Below, in pieces: positions 1,909-37,602 of a stretch of 37,735 nt of DNA. Every line of letters begins with the position of its first letter. Position 1 is the stretch's first letter. A model generated the notes under the pieces. That model was given only the letters and a program-made list of their open reading frames with translations, did no database searches and had not been told where the DNA came from. The position numbers were made by a program, and so were the translations under genes. Origin of the DNA: a virus; IMG/VR virus record IMGVR_UViG_3300044613_001447, positions 1 to 37,735 of that record. The stretch is one strand, 5' to 3'.

Positions 1909-3121
1909 ATTCAGACACTCTCCATCTCTTTATCGTGGGTTCGTTGGCGGTCGTGGTAGCGGCAAGTCATATGTTGGCGCATATGATCTTCTATGTCGTG
2001 CGATGTCAGAACGAGGCCGAGGTCGTCTCTACATGGTGGTGGCCCCTACTTACATCATTCTGCAAGATGCTTCAATGAGGACCGTGGTTCAGATCGCAGA
2101 AGACCTTGGTGTCATCAAAGAAAAGTGGAAACAACCGCCTCGCCTGATCTTGACAAACGGTTCTGAAATCATCTTCCGCTCTGGTGACGATCCAGAAAAG
2201 TTGCGTGGCCCCAACCTCTCTGGAGTGTGGCTCGATGAGGCATCTCTAGTGGGCGAAGAAACCTACAACGTCTGCATCGCCTGTCTTCGAGAAGCCGGTC
2301 AAGCAGGATGGCTGTCTGCCACCTTTACGCCCAAAGGCACCTCCCATTGGACCTACGAAGTATTTGCCCGTAACAGGCCCAATACTGCCCTATTCCGCTC
2401 ATCAACCAAAGAGAACCCATTCCTCCCTGGAGAGTTCATCCATGCTCTCCAGACGCAATATTCCGACAAGCAAGCAGCACAAGAGATCTCAGGCGAATTC
2501 GTTGACCAAGAAGGTTGCGAATGGCCCGCGGCGCACTTCACCGGGCACATCTGGTTCGATGAATGGCCCGACAACCGCCAAATCGCACTCAAGTCGATTG
2601 GCCTTGACCCATCCAAGGGGAACGACTCCAAGCACGGTGACTTCTGCGCCATCGTCAAATTGGCACGCACCATCGAAGGCATCATCTACGTCGAAGCCGA
2701 TCTTCAACGCATCGACTCCGAATCTATCGTTTCAAACATTTGCAACGAACAACAACAATTCAACGCTGATGTGGTCGTAGTAGAAACAAATCAATTTCAA
2801 CATTTACTTGCCACACAGATCATTTCAACGTCAAGAAAAAAAGGCATTTCAATGCCTGTTATGTCTGTTTACAATAAAGTTTCAAAGGATGTTCGCATTC
2901 GTCGTCTTGGTCCGAACCTTTCTAACAAGATCTTCAGGTTCAAGGCCAATCACGAAGGTACTCGACTCCTGGTGAATCAATTGCGTGAATTCCCTATGGC
3001 AAAGTACGATGATGGACCGGATGCCTTGGAAATGGCCCTGCGTGGTATGATTTCAATCCACAATGGACGTGTTCAGACTCAAGGCAAAGGTGCGACACCA
3101 ACAAGAGGAATCCGATCATGA
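1838..3121 (+). CDS. terL: Terminase large subunit (packaging ATPase-nuclease)
   Basis: This 427-residue DNA packaging motor translocates DNA into proheads and cuts concatemers. The N-terminal ATPase shows Walker A GGRGSGKS at 37-44, Walker B GVWLDE at 129-134 and the coupling motif TFTPKG at 162-167. The C-terminal RNase H-like nuclease shows acidic residues in the expected order: IGLDPS (D257), VVVVETN (E316) and DDGPDAL (D391/D392/D395). The start at 1838 has GAGGAG 10 nt upstream and makes a 71-nt overlap with the small subunit, longer than usual; a TTG ten codons later would shorten it. It overlaps the portal gene by ATGA. Confidence 0.95.
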   Translation: MEASTPPQPSLTTKTIKLHKVQSEFRHSPSLYRGFVGGRGSGKSYVGAYDLLCRAMSERGRGRLYMVVAPTYIILQDASMRTVVQIAEDLGVIKEKWKQPPRLILTNGSEIIFRSGDDPEKLRGPNLSGVWLDEASLVGEETYNVCIACLREAGQAGWLSATFTPKGTSHWTYEVFARNRPNTALFRSSTKENPFLPGEFIHALQTQYSDKQAAQEISGEFVDQEGCEWPAAHFTGHIWFDEWPDNRQIALKSIGLDPSKGNDSKHGDFCAIVKLARTIEGIIYVEADLQRIDSESIVSNICNEQQQFNADVVVVETNQFQHLLATQIISTSRKKGISMPVMSVYNKVSKDVRIRRLGPNLSNKIFRFKANHEGTRLLVNQLREFPMAKYDDGPDALEMALRGMISIHNGRVQTQGKGATPTRGIRS

Positions 3122-5301
3122 ATCCGTTATCAGCACAATGGTGGCGTTCCCTTCTCCCTGGACAGCCTGCCAAGCCACCGGAAGAACCAAAGCGCAAGAA
3201 GCGTTCTCTCCGTGAAGCCGCCTACAACATGGACTTCAACTTGGGTGGGTATACGGACCTTCTCAGCAGGTTCACAGACGGTGGTGTTTACGCATATCCA
3301 ATCGTTAACGTCAAGGATCGTCTGTACGGCTCGAACTACCCCTTCTGGTACTCAGAGCAGCAGTTGAACCTGATCAGGGCGCAGGCACGCCTTCTTGTAA
3401 CAACCAGCCCCAATGCCCAAGGTCTGCTCAATGGACTGACAAGCTACGTCATCGGCACCGGGTTCGGTTACAGGGTCATGCCGAGGGATGGATATGTAAT
3501 TGAGGACAGTCTCATCCTCAAGGTTCAGAATGTCCTTCGTAAATTCTTCGATGACAACGAATGGGATCTACTCGAACAAGAGATCTTCTTCCGGTCCAGA
3601 GAAGATGGCGAGTGCTTCCTACGCTATTTCCCGCAGCCATCTGGACGGTTGTTGATTCGCACCATCGAGCCTGAACAGATCTACCAACCACCAGGAAGCA
3701 ACTTTGCCGAGTGGTCTTATGGCATAAAAACAGAATTAGAAGACGTTTTCAGCGTCGAAGCCTACAATGTGGATTACGATGCGCCACTAGGCACGGATTC
3801 TGATTCCAACCGGGAAAGCCGAACCGGAGAGATTGTTCCAGCAGCCGACATCGTTCACATCAAGTGCAACGTCAAGAAGTCAATTAAACGTGGTTTGTCT
3901 GACTTCTCCTACGAAACACTCGACACATTCATCACTGCTGGAAAGCTTCGCAAGAACATGGGCGAAGGTGCCTCAGTCCAATCGGCAATTGCTGCTATTC
4001 GACAGCACGATACCGCCACTCAAGAACAAGTCGAGGATTTTGTCACTGACAATATCGACTATTCAGCCTACACTGGGATTCCACTGCGTGAGACAGGATT
4101 CCAACGAATCGAGCCTGGTTCATTTCTGGATATTCCGAAAGGGATGAATTACGTTCAACCACCGGGTTCTGAGAACTATGAATCTCACCTGGCAATCTTC
4201 CAGTCGCTAATGCGTTCGGCAGGAAACCGCCACAATGCCCCCGAATGGCTTTCTTCGAGCGATGTGTCCAATGCCAACTATGCATCGAGTTTGACGGCTG
4301 AAAGCCCATTTCTGAAGAACTGTATGCGGTTGCAGGCGATTTACAAGCGCCACTTCGGCAAGATTGTCCGTGAAGCTATCCTGACCGCTGCCGAGGCAGG
4401 GATGCTTCCTATGGGCATTGTGGATGCCATCGATGTCATTGTGACACCACCAAACGTGGAAGCCCGTGACAGAATCGCTGAATCCACGGCAAACCGCACC
4501 TATTACGAAATGAAGATCAAGAGCAGCCAAACCATTACCCAAGAGCTTGGCCTTGATTCGGAACAAGAGCGGCGCAACATGGAGCTTGAGAAAGACCAAG
4601 AAGACAAGCTCAACGCATCCGATGTTATGGGCGGTGATATGGCTCAGATCTCTGATCAGGCTCTCAATGGACTTCAAATTGAGAACCTAGTGGGCATTGT
4701 TACCCGCGTCGCTGCTGGACAGTTGACCGTGGAAGTGGGCCGTGCGGTGGCTCAAGCCGCCTTCCCATTGATGAATGTGGCACAGATTGCTGACATCTTC
4801 CCTGATAGCCTTTACCGCAGCGCAAAGGCCGCACCAGCAATGACTGGCGAACCCAAGGCTGTCACAGACCTGCCATCTGTTGGACAGTCCAAGGCGGAAC
4901 CAACGCTCCCAGAAGAGCCACCAGAACCAGAAGATCCAGAAGGCGTTGCAGAATCGATTACGGAAGGCGAAGGTAAATACTCGCACATAAGCTTCAAACC
5001 GCCATCAGGAGCGGTTAAAGCCGCCAAGAAGGGCTTAGAATTGCGAAGAGAACATGGTCGTGGTGGAACGTCTGTGGGAATTGCCAGGGCGAGAGATATC
5101 GCAGGCGGCAAAGAAATGAGTCCTTCCACAGTCAAAAGAATGTTTTCATTCTTCTCCAGGCATGAGGTCGATAAGAAGGGCGAAGGCTGGGGCGAAGACT
5201 CGAACGGCTACATCGCATGGCTCTTGTGGGGTGGCGATGCAGGCTTCTCATGGTCTAGGAAGGTCAGGAACCAAATGATTGCGGCAGACAAAAAGAAATG
5301 A
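3118..5301 (+). CDS. Portal protein with an extra C-terminal domain
   Basis: This protein forms the ring at the head vertex through which DNA enters and to which the neck attaches. At 727 residues it is longer than common HK97/lambda-type portals. Residues about 30-530 have the portal character: an early aromatic-rich region, the long middle region with RIEPGSFLDIPKG, and the segment NYASSLTAESPF before a long helix. A linker rich in Pro and Glu (about 575-620) leads to a separate domain at 621-727 containing FKPPSGAVKAA, EHGRGG and WGGDAGFSW. I know that domain from several phage head proteins, without an assigned function. It follows the large terminase with a 4-nt overlap and overlaps the MuF-like gene by 4 nt. 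Confidence 0.9.
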   Translation: MNPLSAQWWRSLLPGQPAKPPEEPKRKKRSLREAAYNMDFNLGGYTDLLSRFTDGGVYAYPIVNVKDRLYGSNYPFWYSEQQLNLIRAQARLLVTTSPNAQGLLNGLTSYVIGTGFGYRVMPRDGYVIEDSLILKVQNVLRKFFDDNEWDLLEQEIFFRSREDGECFLRYFPQPSGRLLIRTIEPEQIYQPPGSNFAEWSYGIKTELEDVFSVEAYNVDYDAPLGTDSDSNRESRTGEIVPAADIVHIKCNVKKSIKRGLSDFSYETLDTFITAGKLRKNMGEGASVQSAIAAIRQHDTATQEQVEDFVTDNIDYSAYTGIPLRETGFQRIEPGSFLDIPKGMNYVQPPGSENYESHLAIFQSLMRSAGNRHNAPEWLSSSDVSNANYASSLTAESPFLKNCMRLQAIYKRHFGKIVREAILTAAEAGMLPMGIVDAIDVIVTPPNVEARDRIAESTANRTYYEMKIKSSQTITQELGLDSEQERRNMELEKDQEDKLNASDVMGGDMAQISDQALNGLQIENLVGIVTRVAAGQLTVEVGRAVAQAAFPLMNVAQIADIFPDSLYRSAKAAPAMTGEPKAVTDLPSVGQSKAEPTLPEEPPEPEDPEGVAESITEGEGKYSHISFKPPSGAVKAAKKGLELRREHGRGGTSVGIARARDIAGGKEMSPSTVKRMFSFFSRHEVDKKGEGWGEDSNGYIAWLLWGGDAGFSWSRKVRNQMIAADKKK

Positions 5302-35281: not shown

Positions 35282-36079
35282 TCAAGCTCCTTCCTTGTTA
35301 AGCCACTCTAAAACCCTATTCGCCATCTCCGCATCCAAGTTCACCAAATCTGTCACACCGAATTCTTCACTGATTGCTTTAGCTACAGACTTGGGTGGTA
35401 ATCCAGAAGCCTTGACCTTGCGAGCAAATGCATCACGCAGGTGATCACGCAGGTTTGGCTCAAGCTTCTGCTGCAATTCGGCATCAACTCCCTTGTTGAA
35501 ATTTACAGCAACTGTCTTACCGGCAAGTTTGATTGCCAGAGCAGAGGTACTAGACTTGTCTGATGGCTCAGGCACTGCATTGGTTTTAAGCTGCGGAGTA
35601 TCTTGCACTTCCGATTCATCAAGCCAGCCAAGGCCGCAAAGCGACAATGTGCATCGACGCTTGGCCTTGGTCATCGCCCTCATGCGAGCATTCGCCAGAT
35701 CGATCCCTTTAAGGCCTGCAACGAACACATCCCCTCGATCAATGTCGCGCCTGCCGTCCTTGGCTTGCATCGTAACTATTACGGAAAATATGTCGTCTTT
35801 GAATTCCTCACGCATTTCAACTAGTGAAACTCCGTGGATGGAACGCAACTGGTCAGCACAGTTGCGCTGTGCGTACATTTTCTCTGAACCATCACGCTGC
35901 TTATAAAATCCGAATGGCTGCGTGTAAGGATTCAATCCCAGGCTTTCGCAAACCCTTTTGTAAAGCGCAACCTTATCGTCTGCACTCAAACGACCGTAAT
36001 CGTTTTTCATCAGCGCATGTTCGACAGCTTCTCCCATGCCATACTGTCCAGACGTAACAAGACCTTTCTCATCTACCAT
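35282..36079 (-). CDS. Putative single-strand annealing / recombination protein
   Basis: This 265-residue protein has a conserved core that I know from many phage genomes: DYGRLSADDKVALYKRVCES, LGLNPYTQPFGF, YAQRNCADQLRSIHGVSL and LKGIDLANARMRAMTKAKRR followed by CTLSLCGLGWLDE. Members are often placed with recombination genes, and I believe they act like RecT/Red-beta annealing proteins, but I cannot confirm this. The C-terminal ~100 residues form a separate helical part. ATG 36079 is preferred over 36085 because AAGGAG is at a proper 7 nt. The neighbouring SSB-like and helicase genes fit. Confidence 0.65.
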   Translation of the reverse strand: MVDEKGLVTSGQYGMGEAVEHALMKNDYGRLSADDKVALYKRVCESLGLNPYTQPFGFYKQRDGSEKMYAQRNCADQLRSIHGVSLVEMREEFKDDIFSVIVTMQAKDGRRDIDRGDVFVAGLKGIDLANARMRAMTKAKRRCTLSLCGLGWLDESEVQDTPQLKTNAVPEPSDKSSTSALAIKLAGKTVAVNFNKGVDAELQQKLEPNLRDHLRDAFARKVKASGLPPKSVAKAISEEFGVTDLVNLDAEMANRVLEWLNKEGA

Positions 36080-36101
36080 ATCCATACTCCTTTTTCTTAG
36101 A

Positions 36102-36416
36102 TCAGATCAACTTTTCGGAACGAATGATACGAACACGTTTGGGTGCGAGCAGGCGTAGTGCTGCTCGCTCACCGGCTAGGTCATCGAGGGTAATTACGAC
36201 CATCGCAGGTCGATCATCGCTCGGCCCAGGCACTTCGATTGACTGTCCAATGGAGAGGGTGAACTCAACATCACGCACACGAATAGTTGCTTCACGATCT
36301 GTGACCACAAGGGTTTCCAGAAGGATGTCTTGGCACCCTTCCCATCGCATGACGATGTTTTCGCCAACTTGCCGGATTAGAGACAGCCCACCATACCTGT
36401 TAAAAATCGTCATCAT
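36102..36416 (-). CDS. Tandem CsrA-like RNA-binding protein
   Basis: This 104-residue protein contains two consecutive CsrA-like units. Unit 1 (about 10-47): LSLIRQVGENIVM, then DILLETLVVTDREATIRV, matching CsrA strands 1-4. Unit 2 (about 49-104): EFTLSIGQSIEV, then MVVITLDDLAGERAALRLLA, followed by APKRVRIIRSEKL, matching strands 1-5 and the start of the C-terminal helix. CsrA normally is a ~60-residue homodimer whose RNA sites join strand 1 of one chain and strand 5 of the other. Here one chain keeps the basic strand 1 (unit 1) and the basic strand 5 (unit 2), suggesting one RNA site per chain. It could control phage or host translation. ATGA overlap with the upstream gene. Confidence 0.7.
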   Translation of the reverse strand: MMTIFNRYGGLSLIRQVGENIVMRWEGCQDILLETLVVTDREATIRVRDVEFTLSIGQSIEVPGPSDDRPAMVVITLDDLAGERAALRLLAPKRVRIIRSEKLI

Positions 36417-36892
36417 TTCCCTTCCTTCTTCTGTTTCTTCTTCAACATTCTAGCCCTGGAAACTAAAGCAGCTTCCAGTCTTTCGAGAGAAAATCCTATC
36501 CTGTTCCAGCCGATCACCTTAAAAATGTGGCTGATTTCTGGTGGTATATTCATTTCCTCGATGTGCGTCACGAATTCTGGGTTCGTGATATCCAGCAAGA
36601 ATTCTACCGTTTTACTGGGACTTTGGCGCAGGTTTGTTTCGTCTGAAACGTATGACACTAGAAAAAAAGTTAGATCTTCCATTTCTATACCACGGCAGGA
36701 CAGACCTGCAAGCAGCCTCATTACCCCTTGCATATCCCAGTTGCCTGCCGAAATAACCAACAAATTATATTCGCCGTTATTGATTTCCCCACCATCAAAT
36801 GCACGTTTAAAACGTGACTCCAGTTCTTCTCTCAATGCTATCGACGAACCCATCCCGCCCTCGATGTATTCCTTGGCTAGATCGTTCGACAT
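36413..36892 (-). CDS. Hypothetical protein upstream of the CsrA-like gene
   Basis: This 159-residue mostly helical protein starts MSNDLAKEYIEGG at 36892, with an excellent AAGGAGGTG 7 nt upstream; a longer frame reaches 36967 but overlaps the lipoprotein gene and has no such site. It has a mixed central region (GEYNLLVISAGNWDMQGVMR, TFFLVSYVSDETN) and a Lys-rich end (RARMLKKKQKKEGK). The stop overlaps the ATG of the CsrA-like gene. I recognise no family. It could be a partner of the CsrA-like protein. Confidence 0.65.
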   Translation of the reverse strand: MSNDLAKEYIEGGMGSSIALREELESRFKRAFDGGEINNGEYNLLVISAGNWDMQGVMRLLAGLSCRGIEMEDLTFFLVSYVSDETNLRQSPSKTVEFLLDITNPEFVTHIEEMNIPPEISHIFKVIGWNRIGFSLERLEAALVSRARMLKKKQKKEGK

Positions 36893-36917
36893 AGCGCACC
36901 TCCTTAGTATCATTATC

Positions 36918-37076
36918 CTATCGCACCAATCGCAACACAACCTCACCATGAGGCTTGTCGCCATCATATGATAGCCTGATCTCCGCTTCTGTCCTAGACC
37001 GAGGCGAAGGTGCTACGGCGCAACCGCAAATCAGGCTAGCAGCAGCAATCAAAACAATGCGGAAAATCTTCATCAT
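36918..37076 (-). CDS. Small predicted lipoprotein
   Basis: This 52-residue protein starts MMKIFRIVLIAAASLICGC; the hydrophobic signal with Ile-Cys-Gly before Cys19 is a near-lipobox, followed by AVAPSPRSRTE, a typical flexible mature start. AGGAG lies before the ATG pair at 37076/37073, partly inside the 3' arm of a perfect hairpin. Very small lipoproteins in phages can be outer-spanin-like or superinfection-exclusion proteins; neither can be shown here. The gene lies among early genes, which fits exclusion better than lysis. Confidence 0.65.
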   Translation of the reverse strand: MMKIFRIVLIAAASLICGCAVAPSPRSRTEAEIRLSYDGDKPHGEVVLRLVR

Positions 37077-37118: not shown

Positions 37119-37406
37119 TTAGTCGTGAGTGTGGCTCAAAGTTTCTTGGAATGTCACACGACTTTCCAGGTCAGCAACCCGCACAACCAGTGCATTCAGA
37201 GCGACGATGAAACGCTGCTTTGCTGCACTAGGACCAGGTTTGCGACCACGCTTGTCGCCTCTGGGCCACAGCGCCACAGCTTCCGATTGAATCGGTGTAG
37301 ATCTTGGGTCAGGCAACCTACCAAGTTTAATTTGGTAGATGACTGCGTTGCGCGTCTTGTTGAAATACCTCGCCATTTCATCAATCGTAGAAATCATCGT
37401 CATCAT
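37119..37406 (-). CDS. AlpA/MerR-like DNA-binding protein
   Basis: This 95-residue protein has an N-terminal helix-turn-helix pattern (STIDEMARYFNKTRNAVIYQ, then IKLGRLPDPRST), with the wing-like region EAVALWPRGDKRGRKPGP and a C-terminal helix/coiled coil (IVALNALVVRVADLESRV). This is the layout of small AlpA/excisionase-type regulators. The start at 37406 follows GAAGGGGA and lies inside the upstream gene by 26 nt. It may regulate early genes. Confidence 0.65.
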   Translation of the reverse strand: MMTMISTIDEMARYFNKTRNAVIYQIKLGRLPDPRSTPIQSEAVALWPRGDKRGRKPGPSAAKQRFIVALNALVVRVADLESRVTFQETLSHTHD

Positions 37407-37602
37407 GAGTCCCCTTCGTGATCGCTTCAAAGAATCCAACTAATGCTCTGGCATCAGCAATCATTCTATGATTTTCTGGGTTACTGGCAACTAATTCGGA
37501 AAATAATTTTTTCGACAAACATCGTAATTTCCAGAGCATCGTTTTGCTCCAAAAGCATGGTGTGCCTGCGTCACCATGCTGCTCACGATAATAGTTCTTC
37601 AC
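37381..37602 (-). CDS. Small hypothetical protein starting with GTG
   Basis: This 73-residue protein begins at GTG 37602, which overlaps the stop of the upstream frame (GTGA). It is basic at the start (KNYYREQHGDAG) and acidic at the end (THDDDDFYD). The centre is helical (KTMLWKLRCLSKKLFSELVA). No family recognised. Its ribosome binding site (GGTGGTG) is weak. The acidic end overlaps the start of the AlpA-like gene. Confidence 0.5.
   Translation of the reverse strand: MKNYYREQHGDAGTPCFWSKTMLWKLRCLSKKLFSELVASNPENHRMIADARALVGFFEAITKGTHDDDDFYD

Follow-up and report, generated by a model that had tools for sequence, protein, structure and literature searches.

Can a single phage-encoded chain do the work of one RNA face of a CsrA dimer? 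The question is raised by a small open reading frame in the window, the whole 37,735-nucleotide stretch of viral DNA analysed here. CsrA/RsmA is a domain-swapped homodimer of two 60-amino acid chains, with two sandwiched five-stranded sheets and two GGA-binding RNA faces. The sheet order in RsmA is b5A-b2B-b3B-b4B-b1A (PMC3791407), while in CsrA each RNA face pairs b1 of one chain with b5 of its partner, RNA binding depends critically on L4 and R44, and a dimer is able to bridge two sites, as is required for full repression of glgC (PMC7652899). The first-pass annotation read the locus as encoding a single-chain tandem CsrA in which one of the two RNA faces is retained, and this proposal is supported by a nine-strand structural model and by the same residue pattern in tandem relatives. 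With a probability of roughly two in three, we infer that the encoded protein (P0001) is a single-chain CsrA pseudodimer that would bind RNA as a monovalent, self-contained CsrA. Unit 1 (residues 9-47) would provide b1-b4 without strand 5, and b4 would run straight into b1' of unit 2 (residues 50-101), which would provide b1'-b5'. The short link from b4 to b1' is geometrically natural because b4 and the b1 of the partner chain adjoin in one sheet of the CsrA dimer. The kept face would combine b1 of unit 1 (L13, R15) with the APK loop and b5' of unit 2 (I97, R99); the lost face would be that of unit 2 b1' and unit 1 b5.

The open reading frame is present where it was first annotated, although it runs on the minus strand from an ATG at 36416 to a stop at 36102, and encodes 104 amino acids (MMTIFNRYGGLSLIRQVGENIVMRWEGCQDILLETLVVTDREATIRVRDVEFTLSIGQSIEVPGPSDDRPAMVVITLDDLAGERAALRLLAPKRVRIIRSEKLI) with a predicted pI of 5.4. 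The CsrA-like segments quoted in the first-pass annotation are found at residues 11-23 (LSLIRQVGENIVM), 51-62 (EFTLSIGQSIEV), and 89-103 (LLAPKRVRIIRSEKL). Searches of phages (up to E=10), plasmids, viral contigs, and genome contigs found one close homologue, a near-identical copy on the viral contig IMGVR_UViG_3300044729_002012 (L001). Nothing beyond L001 was recovered with the fixed-distance pattern R..VGE...APK or through synteny of the neighbouring genes, a combined alignment of CsrA and P0001 gave no matches in viral contigs, and no homologue was found by sequence in the PDB. The two copies differ at 16 of 315 bases, and because all 16 changes are synonymous (protein identity 100%), P0001 is taken to be a real gene under strong purifying selection. 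It is preceded by a good ribosome-binding site, and its start codon overlaps the stop codon of the upstream gene (ATGA), which makes coupled translation likely. A 109-amino acid frame is open antisense to P0001 (36124-36453, plus strand) and is longer in L001; it probably arises as a by-product of codon usage.

The sequence evidence for CsrA is strong at the two ends of the protein and weak in the middle. The Pfam CsrA profile (PF02599) matches residues 72-101 with 14.4 bits (E=0.037), below the curated cut-off of 27 bits, so that P0001 is not a PF02599 member by that cut-off, and a CsrA-like mode of action has better support than membership in the Pfam family. The LAL_C2 profile (PF18603) matches residues 44-88 with 19.6 bits (E=0.0011), also below its cut-off (29.4 bits), and P0001 thus lacks the match above 29.4 bits within an ATP-grasp ligase that would mark LAL_C2 membership. 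With a profile built from 11 diverse CsrAs for shuffle tests, whole P0001 scores 13.4 bits, a value reached by none of 4,368 scored shuffles, and the score of unit 2 is likewise reached by no scored shuffle; unit 1 alone has no significant CsrA match (153 of ~4,860 shuffles scored equally high). The half-by-half profile search suggested by the first-pass annotation therefore finds one half only, through the weak Pfam match in unit 2. Position-specific scoring (PSSM) places CsrA b1b2 (model positions 2-14) at residues 11-23 with 15.3 bits (p ~4e-4 against class-preserving shuffles) and CsrA b3-b5 (model positions 18-46) at residues 73-101 with 23.2 bits (0 of 5000 shuffles as high). The collinear pair scores 38.4 bits, whereas the highest score among 2,760 windows from other open frames is 13.8, and hhalign recovers the same two pieces, corresponding to CsrA strands 1-2 and strands 3-5. 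The hallmarks of CsrA strand 1 (L4, R6, G9, E10) are present in unit 1 as L13, R15, G18, and E19, and unit 2 has those of the APK loop and of strand 5, R44 included, as A91, P92, K93, and R99, while R7 and R31 are replaced by Q16 and A86. One face accordingly has L13, R15, A91, P92, K93, V95, I97, R99, and E101, and the other does not have any critical pair.

The middle of the protein (residues 24-72) fits CsrA b3b4 followed by b1'b2' with p=0.012 in a class-preserving shuffle, a fit equalled by 1 of 7,220 real windows. An alternative placement from default MAFFT, with residues 43-62 as CsrA 1-20, is possible by sequence and was rejected for its poorer agreement with the strand prediction. There is no direct internal repeat, as units 1 and 2 cannot be aligned to each other (p ~0.7). 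Given the weak middle and the non-aligning halves, the sequence alone can also be read as one CsrA unit whose b2 and b3 are separated by a 48-residue insert. The earlier claim of two CsrA-like halves is therefore weaker from P0001 itself, whose own halves do not align, but becomes credible through the structure model, the matches to independent models of phage proteins, and the clear tandem relatives.

Structure prediction from the single sequence with AF2 gave a pLDDT of 50, and a PDB search from that model is meaningless. A guided prediction used CsrA fragments 1-35 and 17-50 from 32 loci, which MAFFT aligned to residues 10-23 and 66-104 of P0001, leaving residues 24-65 without aligned rows; the fragment set was picked after trial alignments to reproduce the end placement of the PSSM, and other sets place strand 1 elsewhere. 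The guided model has a pLDDT of 81.6 and a pTM of 0.76, with residues 31-60 at 91-96, and contains the expected nine strands in CsrA order (Table 1), with the ends guided by CsrA rows. For the two sandwiched five-stranded sheets of CsrA, the model bears on strand order, not on pairing. In the model the strands read as b1 b2 b3 b4 / b1' b2' b3' b4' b5', a predicted one-chain CsrA dimer without the first strand 5. Foldseek matches of this model in the PDB include RsmF/RsmN (4k59 and 4kji, probability 0.97, TM 0.64-0.67 by target) as well as unrelated generic beta barrels, none with a significant E-value. In BFVD, eight phage proteins of 81-114 amino acids match with E<1e-3, one of them named carbon storage regulator, and TM values reach 0.83/0.81 (109 columns) and 0.69/0.88. 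The likeness of the model to CsrA and RsmN at its ends is partly circular because AF2 used CsrA rows there. The BFVD matches are free of that circularity because those models were made independently of this alignment, as is the unguided middle of P0001, where strands appear in the expected places without any aligned rows.

Table 1. Position of P0001, its predicted strands, and neighbouring features in the window
Feature	Position	Strand	Evidence
P0001, single-chain tandem CsrA-like protein, 104 aa	36102..36416	-	Open frame; 16/16 synonymous vs L001; CsrA-like ends; fold
Ribosome-binding site AGAAGGAAGGGAA	36417..36430	-	Sequence
Unit 1 b1, residues 11-16 LSLIRQ, R15 = CsrA R6; half of the putative retained RNA face	36369..36386	-	PSSM 15.3 bits; AF2; L11, L13, R15, G18, E19 invariant in four tandem proteins
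Unit 1 b2, residues 20-25	36342..36359	-	AF2
Unit 1 b3, residues 31-38	36303..36326	-	AF2 pLDDT >90 without aligned rows; CsrA b3b4 4.8 bits at 30-47
Unit 1 b4, residues 42-47, turning directly into unit 2 b1; unit 1 without APK and b5	36276..36293	-	AF2
Unit 2 b1', residues 50-55 VEFTLS, L54 at R6 position; degenerate face	36252..36269	-	AF2; CsrA b1b2 6.5 bits at 50-62
Unit 2 b2', residues 59-63	36228..36242	-	AF2
Unit 2 b3', residues 72-81	36174..36203	-	AF2; HMM and hhalign match to CsrA 18-46
Unit 2 b4', residues 84-90	36147..36167	-	AF2; HMM match
APK loop and b5', residues 91-100 APKRVRIIRS, R99 = CsrA R44; other half of the putative retained face	36117..36146	-	AF2 strand at 95-100; CsrA 36-46 19.9 bits from residue 91; A91, P92, K93, V95, I97, R99, E101 invariant in four tandem proteins
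Upstream neighbour, 184-aa frame, function not assigned, P0001 operon; 159-aa shorter start in relative	36413..36967	-	
Downstream neighbour, 267-aa protein, recombination-protein-like by eye	35282..36085	-	
UvrD/SF1 helicase, early replication/recombination operon of P0001	33458..34996	-	PHROG 1967 E=5e-83; Pfam UvrD

Tandem CsrA proteins also occur in other phages. Searching viral contigs for APKxVx[IM]xRxE yielded, besides many ordinary CsrAs, three long ones: L289 (107 amino acids) and the near-identical pair L278 and L303 (97 amino acids). Each of the three has two Pfam CsrA stretches (79.9 bits in total for L289, 56.3 for L278, and 55.8 for L303, with a cut-off of 27), whereas P0001 does not have two significant CsrA domains. 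When 306 loci (1.48 Mb, 10,220 open frames) were scanned uniformly for frames in which a b5 motif follows a b1 motif at a distance of 50-100 residues, with no closer b1, P0001, L289, L278, and L303 were the only proteins returned, with spacings of 80, 73, 79, and 79 residues; P0001 thus has the spacing of the tandem type (b1 and b5 ~70-85 residues apart in one frame, no closer b1). P0001 is 28-32% identical to the other three in a four-way alignment, and full-length BLAST of P0001 against them gave no significant match. In that alignment, 12 of 20 invariant columns fall in unit 1 b1 and unit 2 APK/b5'. The relatives share the one-face pattern, with R6, G9, and E10 in unit 1 and A36-P37-K38, V40, V/I42, R44, and E46 in unit 2, and P0001 aligns with R6 in unit 1, R44 in unit 2, and no R44 in unit 1. 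The place of the unit 1 APK-b5 and the unit 2 b1 is occupied in L289 by AGNRIAVMNRSIGQ, where N replaces R44, and in P0001 by VEFTLSIGQ.

The tandem csrA gene of L289 lies between integrase and primase genes and that of L303 between genes for an origin-nicking protein and a single-strand-binding protein, so these genes are in early regions of unrelated phages. P0001 resembles the three tandem CsrAs in architecture, spacing, retained face, and replication or early setting. The gene directly after the tandem csrA of L289 (L289:8978-9307, 4-base overlap) belongs to PHROG 6694, which has no assigned function, and its product is a possible partner of the tandem CsrA. A tandem profile found no tandem CsrA in 767 bacterial genomes (the phylum and class of a Vibrio genome). 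Of the four bacterial matches at E<=1e-10, L311, L312, and L313 are ordinary CsrAs by translation, and the profile match in L314 covers one unit only. In phages and plasmids, tblastn returned single-unit CsrAs only. Two other long viral CsrAs, of 181 and 157 amino acids (L142:501- and L158:501-), are each a normal CsrA with a C-terminal domain of ~100-120 residues.

Three other readings of P0001 need to be weighed. It is unlikely that P0001 is a single CsrA unit (b1b2 at 11-23, b3-b5 at 72-101) with a long insert in the b2-b3 loop that forms ordinary two-faced homodimers, although hhalign and the PSSM recover just this collinear pair of pieces and the CsrA likeness of the middle is weak. The b2-b3 loop is also a proven insertion site, since RsmN carries a 16-residue helix there (PMC3791407), and RsmN/RsmF is the best CsrA-family structural match of P0001. 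However, the middle is predicted as the four strands b3 b4 b1' b2', mostly with pLDDT >90, its fit to b3b4 and b1'b2' has the single equal among real windows given above, and tandem relatives of similar spacing have two clear CsrA domains. The RsmN/RsmF hallmark, a helical insert of ~16 residues in a dimer of docked monomers, is absent: the corresponding region of P0001 is ~48 residues long and predicted to be all-strand.

If the fold is correct, RNA binding may nevertheless have been lost by drift to another role, such as binding a host protein like a CsrA partner. The absence of the R7 and R31 equivalents, the low pI, and the great sequence distance from CsrA are consistent with such drift, which is improbable given that the GGA-contact residues (equivalents of L4, R6, APK, V40, V42, R44, and E46) are kept, also in the tandem relatives, and that P0001 is under strong purifying selection. 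Most improbable is a small phage beta protein with a chance resemblance to CsrA, for example a piece resembling LAL_C2, a domain of ATP-grasp ligases. While LAL_C2 outscores CsrA in Pfam, with both below cut-off, and unrelated barrels are among the PDB matches, the two-ended CsrA pattern is unique in the 10,220 open frames, true tandem CsrAs aside, a named carbon storage regulator is among the BFVD matches, and the LAL_C2 match is confined to residues 44-88, a domain that would hardly be expected on its own in a protein of 104 amino acids.

The preferred reading, a one-chain, one-faced CsrA, can be compared with several known systems. P0001 shares with CsrA/RsmA (PF02599) the predicted strand order, the b1 residues L4, R6, G9, and E10, and the APK/b5 residues A36, P37, K38, V40, V/I42, R44, and E46, but it is one chain of 104 amino acids instead of two of 60, has no b5 in unit 1, would have one face instead of two, and is below the Pfam cut-off. 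In RsmN, the RNA face is formed within one chain and R62 (=R44) is essential (PMC3791407). As in RsmN/RsmF of Pseudomonas aeruginosa (4kji, 4k59), the outer b1-b2 and b3-b5 of P0001 would form a face in-chain around an insert between b2 and b3; RsmN/RsmF is still a two-faced homodimer with a one-helix insert, whereas the four-strand insert of P0001 would stand in for the partner. A heterodimeric E. coli CsrA with one R44A face has been made in the laboratory (Mercante 2009, as described in PMC7652899); from that description it is one-faced, as P0001 would be, and should not bridge sites, but it is a two-chain construct while P0001 is natural and single-chain. Phages are known to carry csrA genes (PMC7366521), and the plasmid protein RsmQ forms heterodimers with host Rsm proteins (PMC9928087). 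P0001 would likewise be a CsrA-family regulator on a mobile element; the described phage and plasmid CsrAs are single-unit, and the mixing of RsmQ with host Rsm is what the one-chain form of P0001 should avoid. Phage csrA, RsmN, the two-chain one-faced laboratory CsrA, and database models are already known; no description of the tandem single-chain architecture was found in the papers searched. The first-pass annotation held that no phage protein of this form had been described, which agrees with these papers, but similar predicted phage proteins are present in BFVD, including the one named carbon storage regulator.

The gene for P0001 is in a minus-strand operon with genes for a UvrD-type helicase, a DUF669 protein, and a primase/helicase; the operon is an early replication/recombination module. 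The 267-amino acid protein encoded downstream of P0001 has no match in Pfam or PHROG; part of its N-terminal 190 residues is common to Campylobacter phages and the spring-water phage MW202444, and ~30 of its internal residues are absent from the L001 copy. A 73-amino acid gene (37381-37602, minus strand) is 100% identical in DNA between the window and L001 while its flanks are only ~83-92% identical, which points to a recent exchange between the two phages. Elsewhere in the window, the portal protein (3118-5301, plus strand) has a C-terminal domain (residues ~614-726) that is also found in, or as, proteins of Vibrio, Roseobacter, Synechococcus, and Pseudomonas PaBG phages, once annotated as DUF2945, and by this distribution appears to be a mobile add-on domain. 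The early operon shows no enrichment of GGA hairpins (4 vs 2.0 expected, p=0.15), and Rfam and tRNA scans gave no matches.

As a one-chain, one-faced CsrA, P0001 would act as a monomer holding one GGA-type site, with the Shine-Dalgarno sequences of phage or host mRNAs or host CsrA-binding RNAs as candidates, and it would block individual sites or act as a competitor of host CsrA, with no bridging of two sites. Mixed dimers with host CsrA are not expected, since the one chain contains both partners. With the R7 and R31 equivalents replaced (Q16, A86) and a pI of 5.4, its affinity for RNA could be low. More tentatively, several unrelated phages may each have made the CsrA dimer single-chain and one-faced, with one GGA site, no bridging, and no chain exchange with host CsrA, as an insulated competitor or a private translational repressor in the early replication stage. 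Bivalent binding, to a high-affinity hairpin and a Shine-Dalgarno site, is held to be necessary for full CsrA repression at targets like glgC (PMC7652899). A natural one-faced CsrA would be a ready reagent to tell bridging from simple occlusion, and the fusion of chains suggests how phages can bring along a dimeric regulator of the host type while avoiding mixed dimers with its host counterpart.
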